Source of the DNA: Geobacteraceae bacterium
GTDB taxonomy: Bacteria; Desulfobacterota; Desulfuromonadia; Geobacterales; Pseudopelobacteraceae
Length of the DNA: 52,263 nucleotides
Assembly (NCBI GenBank): GCA_025355965.1
Contig: JANXYR010000018.1
Span: forward strand, 1 to 52,263
Reading direction: 5' to 3'
This document shows positions 24,462-37,499 of the stretch, one piece after another. Made by a program: the position numbers and the translations under genes. Under the pieces are notes generated by a model. The model saw only the letters and a list, made by a program, of their open reading frames with translations. It searched no databases and was not told the DNA's origin. Positions within the stretch are counted from its first letter, which is position 1, and each line of letters begins with the position of its first letter.

Positions 24462-25139
24462 ATGTTTTTGAAAGTGGTAGAGCTTGCCGATGCTGCCGGC
24501 GTTAGTGAAAAAACGGTATTATCCTGGATCAAGGATATGGGGCTTCCTGCACACAAACAGGATGACCGCTATCGTATCAACCGGGTTGACCTGCTGGAAT
24601 GGGCCACCAACCACGGCATAACTATTCCGCCGGAAATTTTTGTTGTCAATAATGAGACGAACCGTCTGGCAACTGTTTCTGAGGCGCTACAGCATGGGGG
24701 CATATTTTATGAGTTGCCTGGTGAGACTCCGGAGTCAGCGCTACGAGAAGTTGTTTCCAGACTTCATTTACCCCCCAGTCTGGACCCGGAATTCCTGTTA
24801 CAAACCCTCCTGGCGCGTGAGGCACTCGGTTCTACCGCCTTCGGAAAGGGTATTGCGATTCCGCATGTTCGCAACCCGATTGTTGGCCAGACTGGCGAAT
24901 CCGCCATCAGCCTATGCTTTTTGAAAAACCCGATCGATTTTGATGCCGTTGATGGCCAGCCGGTCACGATTCTCTTTACTCTGGTTACCCCCAACGTCAA
25001 GGAACACCTGCACCTGTTGGCAAAACTCGCTTTTCTGCTACGTGATCAACCCTTTCAGGAACTGCTTCATCGTCCCGCTGATGAAGGTGAAATCATGACC
25101 GCAATTCGCGCGCTGGAGGAAACTATTCCAAGGAGGTAG
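24462..25139 (+). CDS. HTH-domain PTS IIA (EIIA-Ntr/Fru type) protein
   Basis: The encoded protein is 225 aa. Residues 1-50 form an excisionase/MerR-like helix-turn-helix (AGVSEKTVLSWIKDMGLPAH). Residues 75-225 are a PTS EIIA type-2 domain with the phosphorylatable His at 135 in FGKGIAIPHVRNP. No sugar PTS genes are nearby. The combination suggests a regulator that senses phosphoryl flux through EI-Ntr/NPr and controls the downstream Ehr-type genes, which begin 7 bases after its stop. A ribosome site for the next gene overlaps its end. The regulatory role is inferred from domains and position. Confidence 0.8.
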   Translation: MFLKVVELADAAGVSEKTVLSWIKDMGLPAHKQDDRYRINRVDLLEWATNHGITIPPEIFVVNNETNRLATVSEALQHGGIFYELPGETPESALREVVSRLHLPPSLDPEFLLQTLLAREALGSTAFGKGIAIPHVRNPIVGQTGESAISLCFLKNPIDFDAVDGQPVTILFTLVTPNVKEHLHLLAKLAFLLRDQPFQELLHRPADEGEIMTAIRALEETIPRR

Positions 25140-25146
25140 CAGCATC

Positions 25147-27156
25147 ATGGCGCAGGAGTTGTTCGCCCCGAGTTCCCTGATTTTCAGTGCCACGCTTCTG
25201 GCCGCACTTTCCGGTGCCCCGTTATTATTTCCTTGGTTACTGAACGTTTCACGGGCTCAGCTGTTGTCGATTGTTTTGATGCTTGCTGCTTCATGTATCG
25301 GCCTGACTGGCGCAATTATGTCTCTCTTCTCTGGGGGGGCTGTACTGTTCGAGTTGGCCTGGACGCTCCCCTTTGGTCCGGCCAGATTTGGTGCCGACCC
25401 CCTGTCGGCCTGGTTTCTGCTTCCCATTTTTCTCATTCCCGGCTGTACCGCACTATATGCCCGTTCCTACTGGCACGCAGATAATCACCATTCAAATGTT
25501 CGCAAGATGACCTTCTTTTGTGGCCTGATGACCGCAGGCATGAGCGGTGTTGTGCTGGCCCGTGACGGTATCAGCTTTCTGTTCGCCTGGGAAATCATGG
25601 CACTGTCCGCCTACTTTCTGGTGTCAACGGAAGATGAAAAACCGGAGGTTAAAGAAGCCGGCACACTGTATATGATTACCACCCATACTGGAACTCTCGC
25701 CCTGTTCGCACTCTTTCCACTTTTGAACCTGCTGTCCGGTTCATGGCTTTTTCCGGCAACCGGTTCACTGACGGCTTCCTCGCCCCTGACGTTAGCGATC
25801 TTCTTGACCGCTCTGTTTGCCTTCGGCTTAAAAGCCGGCATCATGCCGCTTCATATATGGCTACCTTCGGCCCATGCCAACGCTCCAAGTCATGTGTCTG
25901 CCGCTATGTCGGGTGTTATCCTCAAGGTCGGGGTGTACGGGCTGATACGAACGCTCTCATTCTTTCATGGTATCCCACTTTGGTGGGGTTGCTGCGTACT
26001 GGTTCTGGGGGTTGTTTCAGGGGTAGTCGGAGTAGCCTTTGCGATTGGGCAGCACGATTTAAAACGGCTGCTGGCATATCATAGTATAGAAAATATCGGC
26101 ATTATCTTCATGGGCCTTGGTGTGGCACTGATCGGGCAAACTGTCGGTTCCCCGGCCATGATGCTGCTCGGAATGAGTGGGGCGCTGCTTCATGTTATTA
26201 ATCATGCGGTATTCAAATCGCTGCTCTTTCTGGGAGCCGGTTCGGTCATCCACTCGACCGGCACTCGTGAAATAGATTTGATGGGGGGTGTTGCCAGGCG
26301 CCTTCCTTATACGGCTCTGCTGTTCGGAGTCGGTTCGGTAGCAATCTGTGGTCTGCCGCCGCTAAATGGCTTTGTCAGTGAATTACTGATATACCTCGGT
26401 TTTTTTCAGGGAATTCAGAGTGAGGGGGGTGCGGTTGCTGCGGCGGCCTTGGCTGCTCCGGCGTTGGCTCTGGTCGGCGGGCTGGCGGTGGCCTGCTTTG
26501 TCAAGGTTTACGGCATCGTGTTTCTGGGAGTGCCACGTACGGAGAAACATGAGGCACAGCATGAAGCCGGTTGGCAGATGCTGATGCCGATGCTTTTGCT
26601 TGCGACGCTTTGCATTGCCATCGGTCTGGCTCCAAGTCTGGTTGCCGAACATCTGCAGCGCACCAGCCTGACAGTACTTCCTTTGCTTGCAAACACGGCA
26701 GGGCTTCCGTTACATGAGCTCGTTCCTATGAAAATGATAACGCTTTCGGGAGTAGCGTTGCTTGCCCTGATTGCCGTTTTTGCATTCTGGTATAGGCGTG
26801 AATTGAAGTTGGCTCCCTGTAGTAAAGCCGTTACCTGGGGATGCGGTTATCAACGGCCTGCACCCCGGATGCAGTACAGTGCTTCATCATTCGCTGAAAT
26901 GCTGACATCTCTTTTTGCGTTTGTGCTTAGGCCGCAGAATCACCGACCGGACAAAATTGCGGGCATTTTCCCCGGTCACTCATGTTTTTACAGTCATGTT
27001 CCGGAAGCGGTACTGGAGTTGCTATACATTCCTCTACTGAAGCATATGTATCAGCGTTTTTCCGGCATACGCAGGTTGCAGGGAGGTATTTTACAGCAAT
27101 ATGTCCTGTATTCTCTGGTCACCTTAATTGTATTGCTGTTAGCCAGCTACCTTTAG
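25147..27156 (+). CDS. proton-conducting antiporter-like subunit, HyfB/NuoL type (copy 1)
   Basis: The encoded protein is 669 aa with AAGGAGG before the ATG. It has about 16 hydrophobic helices with the Proton_antipo_M core. FGLKAGIMPLHIWLPSAHAN (near residue 235) carries the conserved Lys; HDLKRLLAYHSIENIG and HVINHAVFKSLLFLGAGS follow. The hydrophilic C-terminus (TWGCGYQRPAPRMQYSASSF) is the HyfB-type ending. It should translocate H+ or Na+. It resembles the second copy at 30179 throughout. Its immediate downstream partner is the carbonic-anhydrase-like gene (19 bases), not a hydrogenase subunit. Confidence 0.9.
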   Translation: MAQELFAPSSLIFSATLLAALSGAPLLFPWLLNVSRAQLLSIVLMLAASCIGLTGAIMSLFSGGAVLFELAWTLPFGPARFGADPLSAWFLLPIFLIPGCTALYARSYWHADNHHSNVRKMTFFCGLMTAGMSGVVLARDGISFLFAWEIMALSAYFLVSTEDEKPEVKEAGTLYMITTHTGTLALFALFPLLNLLSGSWLFPATGSLTASSPLTLAIFLTALFAFGLKAGIMPLHIWLPSAHANAPSHVSAAMSGVILKVGVYGLIRTLSFFHGIPLWWGCCVLVLGVVSGVVGVAFAIGQHDLKRLLAYHSIENIGIIFMGLGVALIGQTVGSPAMMLLGMSGALLHVINHAVFKSLLFLGAGSVIHSTGTREIDLMGGVARRLPYTALLFGVGSVAICGLPPLNGFVSELLIYLGFFQGIQSEGGAVAAAALAAPALALVGGLAVACFVKVYGIVFLGVPRTEKHEAQHEAGWQMLMPMLLLATLCIAIGLAPSLVAEHLQRTSLTVLPLLANTAGLPLHELVPMKMITLSGVALLALIAVFAFWYRRELKLAPCSKAVTWGCGYQRPAPRMQYSASSFAEMLTSLFAFVLRPQNHRPDKIAGIFPGHSCFYSHVPEAVLELLYIPLLKHMYQRFSGIRRLQGGILQQYVLYSLVTLIVLLLASYL

Positions 27157-27175
27157 CTTTTTGAGGAGGCAGGAC

Positions 27176-28249
27176 ATGAGCCAAACTATTAATATTAATG
27201 AGCGGCCAATAGCAAACCGCATAAGTTGGGTTTTTGATCTTGCTCAAAGATACTCGACCGAGTTCTGTTCCCCGGAGGCATTCCTTGCCAGGGAAAGGTA
27301 TCTTGCGCTGCATCCGACTGCCATTGCCGTTTTAAAATGCATGGATGGTCGAATAAATATTCCTGTTGCCACAAAAACCCCCGCCGGTATCATTCAGCCT
27401 TTTCGTAACCTGGGAGGGATATTTGATATGGGGTGGCCCCATCTTGGTGAAGTTCTTGCCCAGTATGTCCAACGCATGGTGAGAAGTGGTCGACGGGTCC
27501 TGATTTTGATTACCTACCATTTTTCGCGCGGTGATGTCCAGCGAGGCTGCTCCGGCTTCGGCTGTAATACTGAGGCGGCAATAGCCCACACACGACAGAT
27601 CCAGCATCAGCTTGAAGCGATATTTGGTGTAGCCCATGGCAGTGTCTATCCCCTTATCTGCGGCTTTGAAACTGATGAAGATGCCCTGTTGCTGCACAGC
27701 TCTGATGGTAGAATTCTTGATTTGGCCGGTGGCATTTCGGTCGACGAGTTAGTCGCAGAGTTGGCGATCAGTTTTCATGACATGCCACTTGAAATGAGGA
27801 ACGATCTTCTACCGCTACTGGTTGGCAATCTTTCCCACATAGAAGGGTTGCGACTGGAGCAGCGTGCGCTTACGGTCGAACATCGTGAATGGATGATCTG
27901 TTTGGGGCGCGGTTTTGACTTTCTACATACCCCCAATCTGGCTTTGATCATTGGGCCATATAGTCCCGATTTGGCCGATCCAATCCGGAAGGCAGCGGCA
28001 ATTATCGAAAGCAACATGGCGACAGGGAGAATTCCCGATGACGGTTTTCTGCTCCTCGCTTCGGTGCCTTATGACGAGATTGGTGTAGATCGGGCCCGCG
28101 CAGTTATGAAGTCTCATTTCCTGTCCAAGTTTGCTGCCGAAGTGATAGAACGCGAGTTTCCAGATCTGGCTGGGAAAATGATTCGTCATAATGCGGTGCT
28201 TGATTGGAATTCGCGCAGGATAGAGGCTCTGTCTGGGCCAAACAGCTGA
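27176..28249 (+). CDS. CsoSCA-like beta-type carbonic anhydrase family protein
   Basis: The encoded protein is 357 aa. The ATG at 27176 is chosen because AGGAGG precedes it; a TTG at 27161 would lie inside that site. Residues CMDGR (C55, D57, R59) and YHFSRGDVQRGC (H115, C125) reproduce the zinc ligands and Asp-Arg dyad of carboxysomal CsoSCA, with His-Cys spacing of 10 against 11 in CsoSCA. The following GFETDEDALLLH also resembles that family. No carboxysome genes are near, there is no signal peptide, and it sits between two HyfB-like genes. I infer CO2/bicarbonate interconversion coupled to the membrane complex. The assignment is from remembered motifs, without alignment. Confidence 0.7.
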   Translation: MSQTININERPIANRISWVFDLAQRYSTEFCSPEAFLARERYLALHPTAIAVLKCMDGRINIPVATKTPAGIIQPFRNLGGIFDMGWPHLGEVLAQYVQRMVRSGRRVLILITYHFSRGDVQRGCSGFGCNTEAAIAHTRQIQHQLEAIFGVAHGSVYPLICGFETDEDALLLHSSDGRILDLAGGISVDELVAELAISFHDMPLEMRNDLLPLLVGNLSHIEGLRLEQRALTVEHREWMICLGRGFDFLHTPNLALIIGPYSPDLADPIRKAAAIIESNMATGRIPDDGFLLLASVPYDEIGVDRARAVMKSHFLSKFAAEVIEREFPDLAGKMIRHNAVLDWNSRRIEALSGPNS

Positions 28250-28360
28250 AGTTAAAAGAAGGTCAGTCGATGTAAAAGTATTGTTTGAAGAGGAAAATAT
28301 TCTTGTTCAGGGATACCCGTGGAGTAGCTTTATTAGATTGAAGTCAGCATTTTTTGTTTT

Positions 28361-29968
28361 TCAGCTTTTTGCCGATTGCCCGCTTGGACGTGCACCTACT
28401 TGTGTCATCGAATTGAAGTTTGCAACATTGTCGCAGAACTTCAATCCATCATCAGCAGTTATCTTGCCGTTTTTTACCAGATTGGCTAGGGAGAAATCTA
28501 TGCTTGAATACTCCTCTGCAGATTGCTGGAAGAGTGTCCTGATCTGGTGACATTTGTTCTCACGTATCAAGTTCTTTACTCGGTGGGATGATGCAAGCTT
28601 CTCATAGGCAAGCGCTCGGCCTTTACCATTAATATGGGGAACAAGGCGTTGACCTACACAGACAAGCAGAGATTCCGCAAGCTGGCTTCTGATCTGATCC
28701 TGTTTGTCCTGCGGGAACATGTTAATAATACGTTCCATAGCGACTGTAGTATTAGTGGCATGTAGTGTGCTTATTACAAGATGCCCGGCTCCGGCAGCCT
28801 GAACAGCAATCTCGAAGCTCTCCTGATCCCTCATCTCACCAATAACGATAATATCTGGTGCCTGGCGGAAAATATGGCGCAGCCCATCTTTGAATGAAGG
28901 AGTATCTCTCCCTACTTCACGCTGATTTATGTTGCACATCTTGTGCTTGTGAAAGAATTCTATGGGGTCTTCAATGGTGACTATATTGCATTTTCTCTTT
29001 GAGTTTATCGCATCAATGATCGCAGCAACAGTGGTGCTTTTTCCATGTCCGGTGGGGCCGGTAATAAGAATTAGTCCCTGGGAGTGATAAATGTAGTTGT
29101 CAAAAAAGTTTGAGAACCCCAGAGTTTTCAGTGAAGGGATTTTTTCAGCGATGCCCAGTATTGAAATTGAAATTGATGAACGCTGCCTGTAAATATTCAC
29201 ACGGAAGCGACCGATGTCATGCTTAAGCAGGCCGAAATCCAGCACGCCCTTTTCATTAAATATATCCCACTGCTCTTTTGTCATCATCTCTTTTGCAATT
29301 TCTTCAAGATCTGCCGGCAACATCGTTGGAAGCGGAAGCCTGATAAGTTCATTATTAACCTTCAGGCATGGAGGAATACCGGCTGAAATGAGAAGATCGG
29401 AAGCATTGTATTTTTCTAGTTGAACAAGTAGCTGATCTATCTTAGAAATAATAACAGAGCCTGCAGCAGCCATCTCAAGCTCAATGTTTTCGCCTGAAAT
29501 GTTTTCGCTGACTTGTCCACCCCTTCTTCTCAGATATTCCAGAGCAAAGTTCATCTGCGAATGTGGGACAGCTACAGGCTGCAACTTTTTGCCGATGATA
29601 AATTCCAAACCATTTATGCTGTCAATATCGTTGGGGTCGACCATCGCAATATGAAGGTACCTTTGCGAATGACGTATGGGAATCGCTTGAAAATGGCACA
29701 TCTGTTCATGGGAAATGGAATTCAGAGCGGATGTTTCAATGGTTGTTCTGAAAAGATTAATTGAGGGTGTGTTGTAAAATTTATTCAAAAACTCCAAAAG
29801 TTTTGCGATTGTAATATAGCCGAGCTGAAGAAGTACTGATCCTGTCCTTTCACCCGTTTGCCCTTGCAGTTTAAGTGCTTCAGCTAACTGTTCCGGGGTC
29901 ACAAGTTTTGATTTTACAAAATGCTGACCTATCAGCTTTTCGTCAAGGTCAATGTCTTTGGATCTCAC
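28361..29968 (-). CDS. MshEN-domain PilT/GspE-like secretion ATPase
   Basis: The encoded protein is 535 aa from a GTG preceded by AAGGA. Residues 10-85 show two repeats of the MshEN pattern (IGQHFVKSKLVTPEQLAEAL, then GSVLLQLGYITIAKLLEFL), a known c-di-GMP-binding module. The rest is PilT-like: Walker A GPTGHGKST near residue 316, Asp box, Walker B IIVIGEMRD, His box HLVISTLHATN. PilT is usually about 350 aa without such an N-terminus. It probably powers pilus retraction or a related machine under c-di-GMP control. It lies on the opposite strand, splitting the Ehr-type cluster. Confidence 0.85.
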   Translation of the reverse strand: MRSKDIDLDEKLIGQHFVKSKLVTPEQLAEALKLQGQTGERTGSVLLQLGYITIAKLLEFLNKFYNTPSINLFRTTIETSALNSISHEQMCHFQAIPIRHSQRYLHIAMVDPNDIDSINGLEFIIGKKLQPVAVPHSQMNFALEYLRRRGGQVSENISGENIELEMAAAGSVIISKIDQLLVQLEKYNASDLLISAGIPPCLKVNNELIRLPLPTMLPADLEEIAKEMMTKEQWDIFNEKGVLDFGLLKHDIGRFRVNIYRQRSSISISILGIAEKIPSLKTLGFSNFFDNYIYHSQGLILITGPTGHGKSTTVAAIIDAINSKRKCNIVTIEDPIEFFHKHKMCNINQREVGRDTPSFKDGLRHIFRQAPDIIVIGEMRDQESFEIAVQAAGAGHLVISTLHATNTTVAMERIINMFPQDKQDQIRSQLAESLLVCVGQRLVPHINGKGRALAYEKLASSHRVKNLIRENKCHQIRTLFQQSAEEYSSIDFSLANLVKNGKITADDGLKFCDNVANFNSMTQVGARPSGQSAKS

Positions 29969-30087
29969 GGAATATCCTTGCTGGATGGTTTAAGTTTAGA
30001 AACATTAAATTAGCCTATATGTTGGCGGCGATAATACCACCCAGTATAGTGGAACGTCAATGGATTTTGATCTGAAACACTTTAAAG

Positions 30088-30116
30088 TTGACACATATAC
30101 GTCTCCGGGTTAACAA
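30088..30116 (+). promoter_or_regulatory. candidate promoter of the second Ehr half-operon
   Basis: A perfect TTGACA (30088-30093) is followed 17 bases later by TAACAA (30111-30116), a weak -10. It lies about 60 bases before the second HyfB-like start, implying the second half of the cluster can be transcribed on its own. Confidence 0.4.
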
Positions 30117-30178
30117 TTCTCAATTGCTGCAAATATTGGAGCTGGCCTTTTTTAGAACAGCTTCAAGGAGTCATTTTT

Positions 30179-32176
30179 ATGTTTTTCGCGCTTCAAGGCA
30201 TTTTAGATCCTGGACTTATGGTACTGGTAGCCGCAATTGTTGTCGGTTGTGCCGGCGTTCCTGGACTATTCCTGAAAAAACCAGGTACCGGCCAGGCTTT
30301 TGCTGCAGTTGCTACCATTTTGGCCACCTTGGCAGGTGTGGCGGCCTCCATGCAGCTCTTATTCAGCTATACAACTATCACCTATGTTCTTGAATGGAAC
30401 TTGCCGTTTGGCCCATGTGAGCTTGTCATTGACCCCCTTTCCGCTTTTTTTATGCTCCCGGTTTTTCTGGTCTCTGCTGCCGGTTCTCTCTTTGCTCTAG
30501 GGTACTGGCCTTCTGCCGAACACCGCACCACCGAACGCGGTTTAACCTTTTTCTATGGTCTGCTGGCGTCATCGATGGCGATTCTGCTTATGGCCAGGAA
30601 TGGAGTTTTTTTTATCATGTTGTGGGAGGTTATGGCGCTTTCGGCCTACTTCCTGTTGGTGACGGAGCATGAAAGCAATGATGTCCGGCGCGCCGGAATA
30701 GTATATCTGATTGCAACTCACACCGGCACAGCTGCTCTGTTTGTTTATTTTTCTCTGTTGGCGGCTCAAACCGGATCGTTCCTGCTACCTGCCGCCGGTT
30801 CGCTTTCGGCGCTTTCTCCATTCGCCACGATTATTGCGCTTTCGGCCTTTATCGGTTTTGGTGCAAAAGCCGGCATCATGCCTCTGCACATCTGGCTCCC
30901 CTCGGCCCACGCCAACGCACCAAGCCACGTTTCGGCGCTTATGTCGGGCGTCATGCTGAAGATGGGGCTGTATGGCATCTTTCGCACACTGACATATTTT
31001 TACGATCCACCTCTGCTGTGGGGTGCGGTGCTAACGGTGACCGGAATCACTTCAGCGCTGTTTGGGATCGCCTTCGCGGTTGCTCAGCGTGATATGAAGC
31101 GATTGCTCGCCTGCAGCAGCATTGAAAACATTGGCATAATAACCACTGGCATTGGAGTCGCTCTGCTTGGGGTGTCGAGCCATAATACTACGTTGGTTTA
31201 TCTAGGCATGGCGGGCGCTCTTCTCCATATTCTTAATCATAGTTTTTTCAAACCATTGTTGTTCCTCGGCGCCGGGGCAATAATTCATGCCACCGGAACG
31301 CGTGAGATGAACCTGATGGGCGGGCTTGGAAAAGGTATGCCACGTGTCGCGCTGCTTTTCATGATCGGGTCGGTTGCCATCTGCGGTATCCCGCCTCTCA
31401 ATGGTTTTGTCAGCGAATTTCTGCTGTATCTCGGTTTTTTCAAGCAACTCAAGGCGGATAGCCTGGTCTATCTGGTGCTTCTGGCACCTTTACTTGCGCT
31501 GGTTGGCGGTCTAGCCGTGATCGCTTTTTCCAAGCTATTTAGCTCGGTGTTCCTTGGTACTCCTCGCAGTCCCGCTGCGGCTCATTCACACGAAGCAGGG
31601 TTGACGATACTGGTGCCGATGGCATTTTTTGCGCTGATCTGTCTGCTGATAGGGATTGCTCCACAGCTTGGGCTGCATCTGGTTTCTCCGGCAATCACAT
31701 CGTTCTATCCAAAGCTTGCGTCTACGGAGCTTTCAGTAGAGTATGGAGCCATTTTGGGTAGACTCTCACTTTCCGGAGCTTTGCTGCTGGCGGTGGCTGT
31801 TGTCGCGATGTTTCTCTGGAGGTGGCGTCTGGGAAAATCACCGGTAACTTCCGCTCCAACATGGGGATGCGGTTATAAACGCGGGACTGCGCGTATGCAG
31901 TACGGTGCGTCGTCATTTTCCGAGCTTGCTGTTTCGGTATTCAATGGTATTATACGCCAGCGGATCGGCCGCCCAAAGTTGACTGGTCTTTTCCCAGGTG
32001 CAGCGCACTGTAGCGAAGTCCCGACGGAGACAATTTTGGAGCGGATCATTGTGCCGCTGTTTACTATTGCCGGTGTGTCGTTTGCCTTTTTGAGGCGTCT
32101 GCAGCATGGCCAGATGCATTTATACATGTTGTATGTCTTTGTCACCCTGTTTATTCTTATGCTTTGGGCGCACTGA
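30179..32176 (+). CDS. proton-conducting antiporter-like subunit, HyfB/NuoL type (copy 2)
   Basis: The encoded protein is 665 aa with GGAG before the ATG. It has the same architecture as copy 1: FGAKAGIMPLHIWLPSAHAN with the key Lys, RDMKRLLACSSIENIG, HILNHSFFKPLLFLGAGA and the C-terminal TWGCGYKRGTARMQYGASSF. Both copies belong to the HyfB branch. This copy is followed directly by HyfC-, HyfE-, HyfF-, HyfG- and HyfI-like genes and is therefore the likely core ion-translocating subunit of the complex. Duplication of this gene inside one locus is unusual. Confidence 0.9.
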   Translation: MFFALQGILDPGLMVLVAAIVVGCAGVPGLFLKKPGTGQAFAAVATILATLAGVAASMQLLFSYTTITYVLEWNLPFGPCELVIDPLSAFFMLPVFLVSAAGSLFALGYWPSAEHRTTERGLTFFYGLLASSMAILLMARNGVFFIMLWEVMALSAYFLLVTEHESNDVRRAGIVYLIATHTGTAALFVYFSLLAAQTGSFLLPAAGSLSALSPFATIIALSAFIGFGAKAGIMPLHIWLPSAHANAPSHVSALMSGVMLKMGLYGIFRTLTYFYDPPLLWGAVLTVTGITSALFGIAFAVAQRDMKRLLACSSIENIGIITTGIGVALLGVSSHNTTLVYLGMAGALLHILNHSFFKPLLFLGAGAIIHATGTREMNLMGGLGKGMPRVALLFMIGSVAICGIPPLNGFVSEFLLYLGFFKQLKADSLVYLVLLAPLLALVGGLAVIAFSKLFSSVFLGTPRSPAAAHSHEAGLTILVPMAFFALICLLIGIAPQLGLHLVSPAITSFYPKLASTELSVEYGAILGRLSLSGALLLAVAVVAMFLWRWRLGKSPVTSAPTWGCGYKRGTARMQYGASSFSELAVSVFNGIIRQRIGRPKLTGLFPGAAHCSEVPTETILERIIVPLFTIAGVSFAFLRRLQHGQMHLYMLYVFVTLFILMLWAH

Positions 32177-32197
32177 GTTGGCCTGGGGAGAGTTGTC

Positions 32198-33121
32198 ATG
32201 ATGAACAGTACCATTGCCAATTGTACTATCCATATTTTTCTGGCTCTCGTTATGCCGCCTCTGCTCTTGGGAGTGATCGGCAAAACGAAAGCGGCGTTTG
32301 CCGGGAGAGTTGGAGCGCCGTTTTTGCAGCCCTATCACGATATCCTGCGTTTGCTGCGGAAGGGGACTGTCTTTAGTACGACAACCAGCTGGGTTTTTCG
32401 TGCCGGCCCTATTGTCGCACTTGCAACGACAGCTGTCGCCTCACTGCTTATTCCGTTTGGTGCGCACTCCTCGCCGATCTCTTTTACTGGCGACATGATC
32501 CTGTATGCCTATCTGTTTGCCCTGGGACGTTTTTTTACGATGCTGGCCGCGCTGGATACCGGATCAAGTTTTGAAGGGATGGGGTCAGCCAGAGAGGCGA
32601 CCTATTCTTGTCTGGCTGAACCGACTCTCTTTTTTGCCCTGATTACCCTTTCTCGATTATCCGGCTCATATTCCCTCTCAAATATGCTCGTTAATATCAG
32701 CTTTGGTGTCTGGCTGAACAACGGTGCAGCTCTGCTCCTTCTGGTCGGCGGGATGTTCGTCGTGCTGCTGGCTGAAAACTGTCGTATCCCGTTCGATGAC
32801 CCCAATACACACCTGGAATTGACCATGATCCATGAGGTAATGGTGCTTGACCATAGCGGCCCGGCTTTTGCGATAATCCAGTATGCCGCAGCACTCAAAC
32901 TGTTTGTGCTGGGGGCCTTTTTTGTCCATCTGGCACTGCCGTATGCGACCGGCAATCCATATCTTGATTGGGGGCTTTTTATCATCTCCATGCTGGAGCT
33001 GGCAGTCGTTATTGGCATAGTTGAGTCGGTTATGGCGCGTCTACGCCTGATTCGAGTCCCGCAACTACTTGTTGCTGCCACAATATTGGCAGCGTTTTCT
33101 ACTCTGCTTGTCATTAGGTGA
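32198..33121 (+). CDS. HyfC/HycD/NuoH-like membrane subunit
   Basis: The encoded protein is 307 aa with about eight hydrophobic helices. The N-terminal GKTKAAFAGRVGAPFLQPYHDILRLLRKG and the later AENCRIPFDDPNTHLELTMIHE are the conserved quinone-site/interface loops of the NuoH/HyfC family. It anchors the soluble arm (HyfG- and HyfI-like) to the antiporter-like subunits. GGGGAG precedes the ATG; a second ATG follows immediately and is equally possible. The next gene begins within 6 bases of the stop. Confidence 0.9.
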   Translation: MMNSTIANCTIHIFLALVMPPLLLGVIGKTKAAFAGRVGAPFLQPYHDILRLLRKGTVFSTTTSWVFRAGPIVALATTAVASLLIPFGAHSSPISFTGDMILYAYLFALGRFFTMLAALDTGSSFEGMGSAREATYSCLAEPTLFFALITLSRLSGSYSLSNMLVNISFGVWLNNGAALLLLVGGMFVVLLAENCRIPFDDPNTHLELTMIHEVMVLDHSGPAFAIIQYAAALKLFVLGAFFVHLALPYATGNPYLDWGLFIISMLELAVVIGIVESVMARLRLIRVPQLLVAATILAAFSTLLVIR

Positions 33122-33126
33122 TTAGA

Positions 33127-33768
33127 ATGATTTCTTTGGCCGATCAACTTCTTGTTCTGGTGCTGCTGATTAACTTTATCTCGCTTGGTACCAGCCGTCT
33201 GATCTTCTCTATTCGTGCGGTGGCGGCTCAGGGTGTCATTCTTGGAATTCTACCCGGTCTGATTCATCCGTTTTCCTGGCATCTTGTCGGGATTACGGTT
33301 GTTATTATTGGGGTGAAGGGTTTTGTTATACCACAGATGTTGGGGCGGGCAGTCCGTTCTGCAGAGATCAAGCGCGAAGTGGAACCCTTTCTGGGGTATG
33401 TCCCCACATTGCTGCTAGGAGCAGTTTTTACCGCTCTTTCATTTGGATTTGCCGGCAGGTTGCCGATGCTCCCGGAACACCATAATTACATGTTTGTCCC
33501 GGCATCGATCGCAACTCTGATGACCGGTTTTCTGATCCTGACGACCCGCCGTAAGGCGATTTCGCAAGTTATCGGCTATCTTATCCTTGATAACGGCATA
33601 TTCATCTTTGGTCTCCTGCTGGCTGGTGCGATGCCGGTTATGGTTGAAGCTGGAGCGCTGCTTGATCTGCTGGTCGGCACCTTCGTAATGGGGATAGTCA
33701 TCAACCAGATCAGCCGTGAGTTTTCGTCGCTCGACACCTCACTTTTGACTTCCCTGAAAGAGGAGTAG
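33127..33768 (+). CDS. HyfE-like (NuoK-related) membrane subunit
   Basis: The encoded protein is 213 aa from the ATG at 33127. AGGTG, which overlaps the previous gene's stop, is well placed for it; a GTG at 33118 lies inside that site. There are six to seven hydrophobic helices. The arrangement HyfC-HyfE-HyfF and the conserved VEAGALLDLLVGTFVMGIV segment match HyfE of group 4 complexes. It links the antiporter-like subunits to the HyfC subunit. The next gene starts 3 bases after its stop. Confidence 0.85.
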   Translation: MISLADQLLVLVLLINFISLGTSRLIFSIRAVAAQGVILGILPGLIHPFSWHLVGITVVIIGVKGFVIPQMLGRAVRSAEIKREVEPFLGYVPTLLLGAVFTALSFGFAGRLPMLPEHHNYMFVPASIATLMTGFLILTTRRKAISQVIGYLILDNGIFIFGLLLAGAMPVMVEAGALLDLLVGTFVMGIVINQISREFSSLDTSLLTSLKEE

Positions 33769-33771
33769 TTC

Positions 33772-35205
33772 ATGTTTGCCGCCCTGATCATACTTCCACT
33801 TATCGGAGCCGCCGTAACCTGGCTGATCCCGTTTGACCGGCTGCGCCCCAAGATTCTGTCGCTCTTTGCATTTGCGCATCTTGGCTTGACGATCCAGATG
33901 CTTTCTTTCACTCCTCCGGAATCTCCGGGCGGCTGGTTTCACCTCGATGCGCTAGGTAAAATTGTATTATTAAGCACCAGCGTTCTCTTTTTGACCTGTG
34001 CCATCTACTCAATTGGTTACCTTTTTTATCGCCGCGAACGTTCCAACCGGGTCCTCTGCGTCGGCCTGCTGGTCTGTCTGTCGGCAGCCTCGCTTGTTAC
34101 CATTACTCACCATCTGGGGCTGATGTGGGTGGCGCTTGAAACAACGACAATATCCATGGCCCCGCTGATTTATTTCAATCGCAATGCCCGTTCGATCGAG
34201 GCGACATGGAAATACCTGCTAATCTGCTCGGTCGGGGTCGCTCTTGCTTTGATCGGTCTTTACTTTCTGGCATACGCCACGATTGTTGCCAGAGTTGAAC
34301 CATCGCTGCTGCTGGATGATCTCATCCGTGATGCCGGTAAACTTTCTTCCGGCTGGGTTCATGCGGCATTTGTTTTCCTGTTGGTCGGTTTTGGTACAAA
34401 GATGGGGCTGGCTCCGCTACATACCTGGAAGCCGGATGCGTATGGCGAGGCTCCCGGTTTGGTTGGCGCCCTGTTGTCAGGTGGATTGGTTAATTTGGCT
34501 TTTTTGGCTCTCTTACGCATTTACCAACTTTGCCTGGCTACCAAAGAGATACTGTTTTTTCAAAATGCCCTGATTGTTATGGGGCTCTTTTCGATGGTTA
34601 TGGCGGCGATCTTCATGGCGCGTCAGGCCGATTTTAAGCGAATGCTGGCGTATTCCAGCGTTGAGCATGTCGGCATAATGGCGGTGGCTCTTGGTCTGGG
34701 AGGCAAGGCAATATTCGGCGCGTTGTTCCATATTCTCGCTAATGGCCTGACCAAAGGGGTACTATTCCTGTCATCAGGCAACATTCATCGTTCATACAAT
34801 AGTAAAAGCACCGATCATGTGCGTGGCGCATTGCGCCGTCTCCCCTGGTCTGGAGGGCTCTTTCTGGCTGGCTTCATAGCCATCACCGGATCACCCCCCT
34901 TTGCCCCCTTTATCAGCGAATTTACCATTGTCAGCAGCGCCTTCATTCAGGGGCGCATGCTGATAGGTGCGATCTTTCTGACTTCGCTGGCGATCATTTT
35001 TATTGGTATGGCTATGACTGTCCTACCGATGGTAATGGGTGAAGCTCCTGCTGACAGCGAGACAACTTCTTATCGCGACACGATTGGTACGGTCGGGCCG
35101 CCGTTTTTCCTTCTGCTGCTGGTGTTTGTTCTGGGAATATGGATACCGGATCCTCTGATGACCTTGCTGCGCGACGCATCAGCGCTTCTGGAGGTACATA
35201 AATGA
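33772..35205 (+). CDS. HyfF/NuoN-like proton-conducting subunit
   Basis: The encoded protein is 477 aa with GAGGAG before the ATG. There are about 14 hydrophobic helices. The Proton_antipo_M signature GFGTKMGLAPLHTWKPDAYG (near residue 207) carries the conserved Lys and the HTWKPDA motif typical of the HyfF branch; RMLAYSSVEHVG and FHILANGLTKGVLFLSSGN follow. It is the third antiporter-like subunit in the locus. Its stop overlaps the next start by four bases (ATGA). Confidence 0.9.
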   Translation: MFAALIILPLIGAAVTWLIPFDRLRPKILSLFAFAHLGLTIQMLSFTPPESPGGWFHLDALGKIVLLSTSVLFLTCAIYSIGYLFYRRERSNRVLCVGLLVCLSAASLVTITHHLGLMWVALETTTISMAPLIYFNRNARSIEATWKYLLICSVGVALALIGLYFLAYATIVARVEPSLLLDDLIRDAGKLSSGWVHAAFVFLLVGFGTKMGLAPLHTWKPDAYGEAPGLVGALLSGGLVNLAFLALLRIYQLCLATKEILFFQNALIVMGLFSMVMAAIFMARQADFKRMLAYSSVEHVGIMAVALGLGGKAIFGALFHILANGLTKGVLFLSSGNIHRSYNSKSTDHVRGALRRLPWSGGLFLAGFIAITGSPPFAPFISEFTIVSSAFIQGRMLIGAIFLTSLAIIFIGMAMTVLPMVMGEAPADSETTSYRDTIGTVGPPFFLLLLVFVLGIWIPDPLMTLLRDASALLEVHK

Positions 35206-36725
35206 GCTACGGTATGAAAACTTTTTATAACGGTACCTCGTTCGCACGGAATGAAATACCAACGACGGATAACGACACCTTTTTTCAGGGACTCCTTGAT
35301 TCGATTACTGCAGGTTGGCGGGTTTGTTCATATTTCGGCGTTCCGAATGCCGCCGGGGCAACACTCTACTGCATTATGTCTGCCAGGGCAGGAAGCAGCA
35401 CACTCGGAATTGTCTCTACATCGGTAGGTCGTTCCTTTCCTTCGCTGGCGGTTGTTTGTCCTCAACTGCACCTGTTTGAACGCGAAATTGCCGAACAGTG
35501 TCTGACCCGTCCGGAAGGGCATCCCTGGTTTAAGCCGGTTCGTTTTCAAAAACCGCTCTGCGAAGGAGAGGGGTTCTGGAGCGGAAGCGATGGCGGCGGT
35601 CTGCTTCCAGGGGTGATGGATTTCTATCGCGTTGAGGGAGATGAAGTTCATGAAGTTGCGGTCGGTCCGGTGCATGCCGGGATCATAGAGCCGGGGCACT
35701 TCCGCTTTCAGTGCCACGGCGAAGAGGTCTATCACTTGGAAATAGCGCTAGGGTTCCAGCATCGCGGTATCGAAAGAGTGCTGATCGGAGGCCCGGTTCC
35801 ACGCACCATCCACCAGATGGAAACAATAGCCGGTGATACGACGGTTGGACATGGCCAGGCCTATTGCATGAATATGGAATCACTGGCCGGCGTTTTTGCG
35901 TCGCCACGGGCTGAAACGGTGCGCGGAATAGCACTTGAACTGGAACGATTGGCCAATCATACCGGGGATCTTGGCGCGATAGCCGGGGATGTCGGATATC
36001 TGCCGACCGCCTCGTTTTGTGGCCGGATCCGTGGCGATTTCCTCAATATGAGTGCCCTGTTGTGCGGCAGTCGTTTCGGTCGCGGTCTCCTAAGGCCGGG
36101 AGGGATTGGCTATGATTGTGACGCTGCGATTGCGGAGGAGCTGTACAATCGTCTTCAATCTGCGCGGGTTGATCTTGCCGGAGCTGTTCAGCTGCTCTGG
36201 GATACCCCTTCGGTTATGGCGCGGTTGGAGGATACCGGCACAGTAACAAAAGCTGATGCCCGCGATATTGGCCTCGTCGGACCTGCCGCCAGGGCGTGCG
36301 GACTGAACCGCGATGTCCGGCGCGATCATCCATTCGGAATATTCCGCATGAGCCAGATACCGGTGGTCACTGCCACTACATGCGATGTTGCCGCCCGCAC
36401 GCTGCTCCGCTGGCTGGAGGCCGAGCGCTCTCTGGATTTCATTGATGAACAGGTACGTCATCTGCCGCGCGGCGGCGGATATCGTAACCAGATGAAAGAG
36501 ATTGCGCCTGATCGCTGTGCCGTTGCACTGACCGAGGGGTGGCGCGGCGAAATCTGCCATGTTGCCCTTACTGATGATATGGGGCGATTTGAACGCTACA
36601 AGATTGTAGATCCGTCGTTTCATAACTGGAACGGACTGGGCCTTGCCCTGCGCAATCAGCAAATATCTGATTTTCCACTCTGTAACAAGAGTTTCAACCT
36701 GTCGTATTGTGGATTTGATTTGTAA
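35202..36725 (+). CDS. HyfG/HycE-like large subunit (NuoC-NuoD fusion) lacking Ni ligands
   Basis: The encoded protein is 507 aa. Residues 25-120 are NuoC-like (FPSLAVVCPQLHLFEREIAE). Residues 155-507 are the NiFe-hydrogenase large subunit/NuoD fold (EPGHFRFQCHGEEVYHLEIA). At the N-terminal nickel site, where hydrogenases have CGxC, the sequence is METIAGDTTVGH (A210, T213). At the C-terminal DPCxxC site it reads NLSYCGFDL. All four metal-binding Cys are replaced, so no NiFe centre can form. This is the hallmark of Ehr-type complexes. The reaction partner is unknown. Confidence 0.88.
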   Translation: MSYGMKTFYNGTSFARNEIPTTDNDTFFQGLLDSITAGWRVCSYFGVPNAAGATLYCIMSARAGSSTLGIVSTSVGRSFPSLAVVCPQLHLFEREIAEQCLTRPEGHPWFKPVRFQKPLCEGEGFWSGSDGGGLLPGVMDFYRVEGDEVHEVAVGPVHAGIIEPGHFRFQCHGEEVYHLEIALGFQHRGIERVLIGGPVPRTIHQMETIAGDTTVGHGQAYCMNMESLAGVFASPRAETVRGIALELERLANHTGDLGAIAGDVGYLPTASFCGRIRGDFLNMSALLCGSRFGRGLLRPGGIGYDCDAAIAEELYNRLQSARVDLAGAVQLLWDTPSVMARLEDTGTVTKADARDIGLVGPAARACGLNRDVRRDHPFGIFRMSQIPVVTATTCDVAARTLLRWLEAERSLDFIDEQVRHLPRGGGYRNQMKEIAPDRCAVALTEGWRGEICHVALTDDMGRFERYKIVDPSFHNWNGLGLALRNQQISDFPLCNKSFNLSYCGFDL

Positions 36726-36737
36726 ATTGGAGCCTGT

Positions 36738-37499
36738 ATGCTAAAAGCCATTCTTACACGCTTCCGTCAGGGGCATCGCACTTTTGCATATCCCGACGCG
36801 CCACTGCCGCTGCCACCACGCTTTCGTGGCCTGCCGCTGCTGGATGCTTCCCGCTGTGGTGAAAATTGCCGCGCCTGCGCCGCTGCCTGCCCATATGGTG
36901 CTATTTCCGCTTCCGGGCCTCTGAAACTGGATATGGGTAAATGTCTTTTTTGCGGTGACTGCACTGCTGCATGCCCTCATGATGTAATCTCGTTTTCATC
37001 AGATGCCCGTCTTTCAAGCCGCAGTCGCAACGCCTTGACGGTGACAGCTGGCGAGCAATACCAACCGGGAGGGGCTTTGGAAGGTGAACTGCTGCGTCTG
37101 TTCGGACGTTCGCTCAAATTGCGCGAGGTGAGTGCCGGTGGTTGTAATGCATGTGAGGCAGACACTAATGTGCTCTCTACTATCGGCTGGGATTTGGGAC
37201 GCTTTGGTATCCAGTTTGTAGCCAGTCCGCGCCACGCAGACGGAATGTTTGTGACCGGGCCGGTGTCTGAAAACATGAGGCTGGCTCTGCTGGATACATA
37301 TGCTGCGATTCCGGAACCAAAGCTGGTAATCGTTGCCGGTGCCTGTGCTATCAATGGTGGTCCATTCAAGGATCACGCTGAAGTACATAACGGCGCTGAT
37401 GGTCTCGTGCCGGTAGATCTTTACATTCCTGGTTGTCCTCCCAGTCCCCTGACAATTCTGGACGGGCTACTGCGATTGGTGGGACGTGTAAAAAAATGA
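36738..37499 (+). CDS. HyfI/NuoB-like small subunit fused to a 2[4Fe-4S] ferredoxin domain
   Basis: The encoded protein is 253 aa. Residues 35-80 hold eight-Cys ferredoxin motifs (CGENCRACAAACP and CLFCGDCTAACP). Residues 125-250 are NuoB-like, with the proximal [4Fe-4S] ligands in GGCNACEAD, AGACAINGGPF and PGCPPSP. Electron transfer from a soluble donor to the membrane arm is therefore still possible, although the large subunit has no NiFe site. It is the last gene of the cluster, 12 bases after the large subunit. Confidence 0.88.
   Translation: MLKAILTRFRQGHRTFAYPDAPLPLPPRFRGLPLLDASRCGENCRACAAACPYGAISASGPLKLDMGKCLFCGDCTAACPHDVISFSSDARLSSRSRNALTVTAGEQYQPGGALEGELLRLFGRSLKLREVSAGGCNACEADTNVLSTIGWDLGRFGIQFVASPRHADGMFVTGPVSENMRLALLDTYAAIPEPKLVIVAGACAINGGPFKDHAEVHNGADGLVPVDLYIPGCPPSPLTILDGLLRLVGRVKK

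Follow-up and report, generated by a model that had tools for sequence, protein, structure and literature searches.

A CsoSCA2-type carbonic anhydrase gene paired with hyfB1 in a nickel-free Ehr-type cluster of Geobacteraceae: a candidate module for bicarbonate and proton handling

The stretch analysed here, called the window (52,263 nucleotides of contig JANXYR010000018.1, Geobacteraceae bacterium, assembly GCA_025355965.1), carries a Hyf-like gene cluster of the nickel-free Ehr type in which a gene for a carbonic anhydrase (CA) of the CsoSCA2 family lies between two genes for antiporter-type membrane subunits, hyfB1 and hyfB2. The CA gene starts with the ATG at 27176, preceded by GAGGAGG, and the stop codon of hyfB1 lies 19 nt upstream, confirming the spacing given in a preliminary description of this DNA made from the sequence alone. 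We propose, with a probability of about 0.63, that the locus encodes a CA/antiporter module on an Ehr membrane complex, in which the CA and HyfB1 would be functional partners in bicarbonate and proton handling. What the computation established is the fold of the protein, its catalytic residues, the order of the genes, the genus-wide hyfB1-CA pair and the varied CA types between the hyfB genes; from these we infer that hyfB1 and the CA gene are co-transcribed and their products physiologically linked.

The name CsoSCA2 denotes non-carboxysomal CsoSCA homologues, a family called unstudied in the part of PMC9164163 considered here. The window CA scored 28.7 bits against the CsoSCA catalytic-domain profile PF20686 (cut-off 21.5), the CsoSCA fold was matched over both of its halves, and the Cys-Asp-Arg / His / Cys active-site set was invariant in 49 of 49 homologues, which bears out both the identity of the protein and the five residues (C55, D57, R59, H115, C125) that had been picked out by eye. 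A profile search of the PDB returned CsoSCA entries, with H115 and C125 aligned to the HFS..GCA of 2fgy over a stretch that excludes the Cys-Asp-Arg part of the active site; the single sequence matched only a nitric oxide synthase there, weakly, and we took this as chance. The protein is probably catalytically active. A carboxysomal CsoSCA was rejected (TIGR02701, 32.1 bits against a curated cut-off of 241). RuBisCO (PF00016) was found in none of the seven genomes tested out of the 13 that carry the CA, the window's own included, nor was DabA (PF10070) in any of seven same-genus genomes tested out of the same 13; these absences put a carboxysome role out and make a substitute for DAC conceivable. 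Membership of DAC itself was rejected, since the CA matches PF20686 and not PF10070, which is missing from the seven genomes tested.

Pfam and NCBIfam searches found the HyfB/C/E/F/G/I-like gene set complete in the window. Aligned with E. coli HyfG, the large subunit is missing both CxxC motifs (ETIAGDTTVGHG versus DRVCGICGFAHS, and NLSYCGFD versus DPCYSCTD) and with them the cysteine ligands of the NiFe site, so that an active NiFe hydrogenase was rejected and the nickel-free character claimed for the cluster was upheld. Most likely, then, the locus is part of neither a carboxysome nor a hydrogenase. The partner gene of the CA, hyfB1, belongs to the NuoL family (PF00361); its best NCBIfam model is hydrogenase 4 subunit B, at a score under the model cut-off, and E149, K229, K260 and K357 of HyfB1 are common to E. 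coli HyfB in the alignment. An Ehr-type small subunit is present in 147 of 244 genomes of the class (match at E 1e-60).

Table 1. Genes of the Ehr-type cluster and its insertions (positions in the window)
Feature	Coordinates	Strand	Basis
HTH_17 + PTS EIIA_2 fusion (PtsN-like), regulator-like	24462..25139	+	PF00359 E 4.9e-26; PF12728 E 1.1e-9
HyfB1, NuoL/HyfB-like antiporter-type membrane subunit, 669 aa	25147..27156	+	PF00361 E 7.8e-52
CsoSCA2-type CA, 357 aa	27176..28249	+	C55, D57, R59, H115, C125
PilT-type ATPase with MshEN domain, between CA and HyfB2	28361..29968	-	Pfam search
HyfB2, second HyfB-like subunit, 47% identical to HyfB1	30179..32176	+	Pfam/NCBIfam, alignment
HyfC/NuoH-like membrane subunit	32198..33121	+	PF00146 E 2.7e-33
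HyfE-like membrane subunit	33118..33768	+	NF008556 E 2.2e-17, under cut-off
HyfF-like antiporter-type subunit	33772..35205	+	NF005044 E 9.4e-95, under cut-off
HyfG/NuoD-like large subunit without NiFe CxxC motifs	35202..36725	+	PF00346 E 1.8e-35; alignment with E. coli HyfG
HyfI/NuoB-like small subunit, N-terminal 4Fe-4S ferredoxin-type domain	36738..37499	+	PF01058 E 2.6e-24; Fer4 families

Within the family the CA occurs in 13 of 76 genomes, all of them in the window's genus (39 genomes), and the proteins of the other 12 are 82-89% identical to it. HyfB1 lies directly upstream in 13 of 13, and the linkage to HyfB-like genes in other genomes on which the preliminary description had staked its case was thus found. 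Beyond these 13 genomes the pair was met twice, in L050 and, in another family of the order, in L294, and CsoSCA2 directly follows hyfB1 in all 15 genomes with the pair. (The loci L044-L055 overlap the 13-genome set: 11 of the 12 are its contigs, L050 is new and G011 stands in the 13-genome set only, and the two sets were not summed.) The L294 CA is 88% identical to that of the window, as against 71% for HyfB1 and 63% for HyfI, which suggests lateral movement of the CA gene into the same slot. Two metagenome-assembled genomes (MAGs), G025 and G037, have the regulator, hyfB1 and the CA gene on a contig other than that of HyfB2 and HyfG. Unrelated genes come next after the CA there, and the pair, still intact, thus stayed together where the cluster is split.

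The same slot holds other enzymes of the same function. Among 33 same-genus loci read, 22 have HyfB1 and 11 have none above 60% identity, some stretches being cut short; the slot after hyfB1 in the 22 is occupied by CsoSCA2 in 13, by a beta-CA in two and by no CA in seven. (Five same-genus loci without HyfB1, L154, L156, L159, L162 and L163, have, before the Ehr core, a further Hyf-like cluster that is more divergent.) The two beta-CAs (G038, G039) are of the classical can type, 202-204 aa long, and start 26-32 nt after the last aligned HyfB1 codon; that of G038 scores 174.5 bits with Pro_CA, and homologues 81-85% identical are located elsewhere in G023, G035, G018, G036 and G012. Two other genera contribute one genome each. 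In L239 (G866) a second type of beta-CA, scoring 60.5 bits, stands about 0.4 kb downstream of HyfB1 and 85 nt upstream of HyfB2; in L262 (G890) a third type, at 177 bits, immediately precedes HyfB2 and lies several kb from a HyfB1 fragment. Pfam assigned Pro_CA to all four beta-CA sequences tested, and the division into three types is by pairwise identity, 34% between two of them, the third having no blast hit or a weak Pfam score. The proteins of L179 and L239 we take to be Rv1284-like.

In a HyfC tree, L239 and L262 fall in a different clade from the window's genus, within which clusters with CsoSCA2, with a beta-CA and with no CA are intermingled and many forks are weak. Counting the operon-strand gene directly after HyfB1 in the countable same-genus, L050, L239, L274 and L294 cases, we found a CA in 17 of 19, namely 15 in the genus (CsoSCA2 or beta-CA) plus L050 and L294; the exceptions are an aminotransferase-like gene (L172) and a copy of the regulator (L274), and the count becomes 18 of 20 if the L239 beta-CA with its 0.4 kb gap is admitted. 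These cases are not independent, and by type the tally shrinks to three CA types (CsoSCA2, two beta-CAs) as against two other genes. Our CA search around Ehr clusters was confined to CsoSCA2 and four beta-CA queries, with alpha- and gamma-CAs outside its scope. It also recovered, among 80 neighbourhoods read outside the genus, two can-type beta-CAs about 0.5-0.6 kb after HyfI (L236, L279) and two more, in L244 and L245, about 7 kb upstream of HyfB and in the opposite orientation. In L236 a set resembling the NrfD-like/4Fe-4S/cytochrome-like genes described below comes after the beta-CA.

A separate line of evidence comes from CsoSCA2 genes outside the group, for which we took the best 80 of 330 relatives, 68 of them outside (L056-L123, some short), and identified neighbours by targeted tblastn. 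A pump- or transporter-type neighbour (DabA/DabB-type, SulP-Ehr or SulP) was found in 10 of the 68 loci, eight of which lie, in convergent orientation, within about 1 kb of a NuoL-family operon: six adjoin DAC-type genes (L069, L070, L097, L107, L114, L123; DabA in five, in L097 only partly) and two, L099 and L108, adjoin a SulP-HyfB-C-E-F-G-I cluster, L099 having a beta-CA gene on its other side. In L063 (9938-12835) and L095 (2481-5367) CsoSCA2 is followed, 15 and 91 nt downstream, by a co-directional SulP gene (PF00916), likely in an operon with it; L059 has NuoL-like genes 6 kb from CsoSCA2. Chance alone would put about 0.96 of the 68 loci at 3 kb or less from a PF00361 gene (154 matches in 65.2 Mb of 19 hand-chosen genomes, linked ones included), and eight were seen (Poisson P about 8e-6, as a guide only, the 68 loci not being phylogenetically independent). 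Viewed in reverse, from Ehr to CsoSCA2, the association is weaker: in the order of the L108 genome, where 20 neighbourhoods (L213-L232) were read of 81 genomes with a HyfG homologue, SulP lies upstream of HyfB-C-E-F-G-I in nine (one a fragment) and two have CsoSCA2; the SulP neighbour hints that other Ehr complexes also handle bicarbonate or another anion. Two of eight phylum-level homologues outside the genus adjoin a beta-CA gene; three of these eight genomes recur among the 68 loci (contigs of L071, L076 and L117), so the sets were not summed. In L040 and L041, CsoSCA2 stands directly beside a classical beta-CA, and the Ehr cluster lies elsewhere in these genomes (G250, G451).

Several CA types between the same hyfB genes, together with this separate association of CsoSCA2 with DAC, SulP and Ehr genes, find their best explanation, in our view, in selection that favours CA activity close to an antiporter-type pump, and the replacement of one enzyme by another in the same place, the strongest of the new evidence, suggests that CA and pump work together. 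Should our proposal hold, the cytoplasmic CsoSCA2 enzyme would interconvert CO2 and HCO3-/H+ in functional partnership with HyfB1, and bicarbonate formation, or its reverse, would go with proton or sodium movement by the Ehr complex. In its simplest form this would be a transport metabolon, the CA delivering or removing protons near the cytoplasmic mouth of HyfB1 and the HCO3- being used or retained; it would serve to provide bicarbonate and to control the pH of the cytoplasm in an anaerobe that has no RuBisCO. Such bicarbonate and pH control is plausible in acetate-oxidising, electron-exporting cells, which release CO2 and keep protons.

Upstream of HyfB1, the HTH_17/EIIA regulator gene is immediately 5' in all same-genus loci extending that far and also precedes hyfB genes in several other genera and families of the class, a position pointing to phosphotransfer-controlled expression of Ehr; an IPH motif is visible in the protein, which we take to mark its phospho-His site. 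The PilT-type ATPase gene is an insertion in the window's genome, for the other CA loci read have none between CA and HyfB2, where the gaps are short or hold other genes. Promoter-like sites (16, against a shuffled mean of 13.8, standard deviation 4.4) were near the mean and terminator-like sites (26, against 18.8, standard deviation 4.2) slightly above it, and neither was used as evidence; a plasmid search gave no match.

A considerable body of observation weighs against the proposed partnership. The module is accessory: HyfI is present in 35 of the 39 genomes of the genus and CsoSCA2 in only 13, many Ehr clusters have no CA, and the slot also takes unrelated inserts. The seven CA-less same-genus slots comprise four that are empty (151-194 nt to HyfB2), two with toxin-antitoxin-like genes and one with an aminotransferase-like gene, and two further MAGs, G017 (C21) and G023 (C5), carry a HyfB1 homologue (85% and 69%) without a close HyfG, being either HyfB1 without an Ehr core or incomplete assemblies. 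Outside the genus, two HyfB genes are visible in 37 of the 80 neighbourhoods (36 plus L262, its HyfB1 fragment at the stretch edge), a subset of the class genomes with a HyfI match, several of them ended by contig ends, and a CA occupies only three of these 37 slots (L239, L262 and, with CsoSCA2, L294), each time in the direction of the operon. Between the hyfB genes lies a hot spot for insertions in either orientation; many genomes from one genus have it filled by an opposite-strand NrfD-like/4Fe-4S/cytochrome-like set of about 3 kb (L240, L254, L256, L264, L269, L270), and gaps of about that size were seen in L257, L259, L260, L271, L272, L276, L277 and L281. Opposite-strand toxin-antitoxin-like (PemK-like) genes were also noted between the hyfB genes of L165, L166 and L258; the toxin-antitoxin-like, aminotransferase-like, NrfD-like and housekeeping names were assigned by eye, with no profile search. 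For CsoSCA2 itself, our queries found no Ehr, DAC or SulP gene in 57 of the 68 outside loci, some of them short, and no Hyf gene in the 6.7-20 kb read around the eight phylum-level homologues. No docking feature was seen in the window CA: a membrane segment is not predicted, and clade-specific substitutions at otherwise conserved CA columns number two only (L to M85, A to S126). The window's own genome, moreover, encodes another beta-CA with the ligand pattern, and Pro_CA above 80 bits occurs elsewhere in nine of the 13 CsoSCA2 genomes.

Much of this would suit a plainer account, in which an ordinary cytoplasmic CA that provides HCO3- to biosynthetic carboxylations came to lie at a site that is expressed and prone to insertions, and its partnership with the pump is incidental. 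The interval does accept other inserts on both strands, further same-strand genes between CA and HyfB2 in L014, L016, L018, L020 and L022 make this account a little likelier, most CsoSCA2 loci outside the group are without a pump or transporter neighbour, and in the four of 13 CsoSCA2 genomes with no Pro_CA above 80 bits (G000, G021, G042, G046) the gene could be the main CA. We nevertheless consider it somewhat unlikely, for four CA types occupy the interval, all on the operon strand, CsoSCA2 follows hyfB1 directly in 15 of 15 genomes with the pair, the two genes are still paired in the split clusters, other proteobacteria show an independent association of CsoSCA2 with SulP, SulP-Ehr and DAC-type genes, and the strong second Pro_CA of the nine genomes tells against this account too. 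A bolder account, drawn by analogy with DabA/DabB and the cyanobacterial CO2-hydrating NDH-1, would have the CA docked on HyfB1, with hydration powered either by a gradient of protons or sodium or by electron flow linked to ferredoxin. HyfB1-CA does look like a separable two-gene unit, CsoSCA2 homologues stand beside DAC-type operons, the charged residues of HyfB1 are those of E. coli HyfB, and DabA is missing from the seven genomes tested; we judge such a machine very unlikely all the same, as no membrane element like the finger-like motif of DabA2 (PMC13144422, in the part considered) was seen in the CA, its layout is that of homologues elsewhere, and the variety of CA types in the slot argues against a specific coupling interface. 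Class-swapping, the lack of a membrane segment and the mere two substitutions together speak against finely tuned coupling, and true vectorial coupling lies for us somewhere between unlikely and very unlikely.

The inorganic-carbon or pH role first suggested for the locus therefore keeps its support, since CAs of other types stand in for this one at its position, whereas vectorial coupling or ferredoxin-driven flow through the CA found none: the protein has no membrane segment, its homologues outside the genus (61-70% identical) mostly do not adjoin a Hyf or NuoL-like gene, and many Ehr clusters are without it. To call the locus a third, independently assembled machine was too strong; rather, ordinary CAs seem to have been recruited repeatedly to a complex that already existed, and a similar pair, from Acidithiobacillus caldus, had been noted in 2013 (PMC3826726, as excerpted). 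That HyfB1 with a docked, swappable soluble CA could constitute a further type of inorganic-carbon system coupled to an ion pump, one that arose several times as CsoSCA2 or one of three beta-CA types joined the same Ehr antiporter subunit, and that serves anaerobes without RuBisCO, we hold to be unlikely. A CA recruited more than once would still offer a testable lead to the function of some Ehr clusters, in bicarbonate and proton handling, and would give CsoSCA2 a genomic role for the first time, as a neighbour of DAC-type, SulP and Ehr genes.

How, then, does the locus compare with known systems, judged by the parts of the papers considered? Within the literature searched, which left most subscription papers and all bioRxiv preprints outside its scope, no paper was seen to report CsoSCA2 in linkage with HyfB/Ehr or DAC genes, a recurring hyf/CA pair or an exchange of the CA between hyfB genes; a review of the dissolved inorganic carbon toolkit (PMC10880623) uses none of the words hydrogenase, Hyf and NuoL in the part considered, CsoSCA2 serves as an outgroup in PMC12646314, and neither PMC13109103, as far as considered, nor PMC2700814 added anything on the question. 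With the CsoSCA2 of PMC9164163 the window CA shares a compact build, a short N-terminus, the catalytic residues, the CsoSCA fold and an occurrence outside carboxysomes. The family occurs in heterotrophs such as Candidatus Accumulibacter (PMC9164163), and the window CA is 63-71% identical to the proteins of such organisms among the best 80 of 330 relatives. It differs in adjoining hyfB1, section 6 of that paper describing no NuoL/HyfB, DAC or SulP link. Like DAC/DAB2 (PMC13144422), the locus pairs a beta-CA-type zinc enzyme with a NuoL-family subunit; DabA, however, is large, has (in DabA2) a finger-like element in the membrane part and, in that paper, showed no spontaneous CO2 hydration, whereas the window CA is a separate protein of 357 aa without a predicted transmembrane segment, in a genus where none of the seven genomes tested has PF10070. 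The cluster resembles the Ehr complexes of PMC6349859 and PMC12542776 in its group-4-hydrogenase-like genes and a large subunit without NiFe ligands, and departs from them in the CA between its two hyfB genes, no CA being placed beside Ehr in the parts of those papers considered. A further comparison is with the genomic island GIAcaTY.4 of A. caldus, where hyfBCEFG lies immediately beside a beta-CA gene and a role in pH and CO2 homeostasis was suggested (PMC3826726); by description that pair joins an H2-evolving hydrogenase to a classical beta-CA, with neither recurrence nor class-swapping described in the part considered. The CsoSCA2 family and the A. caldus pair were thus already known, and what appears to be new here is the recurrence of the CA-hyfB pairing and the swapping of CA classes within it.

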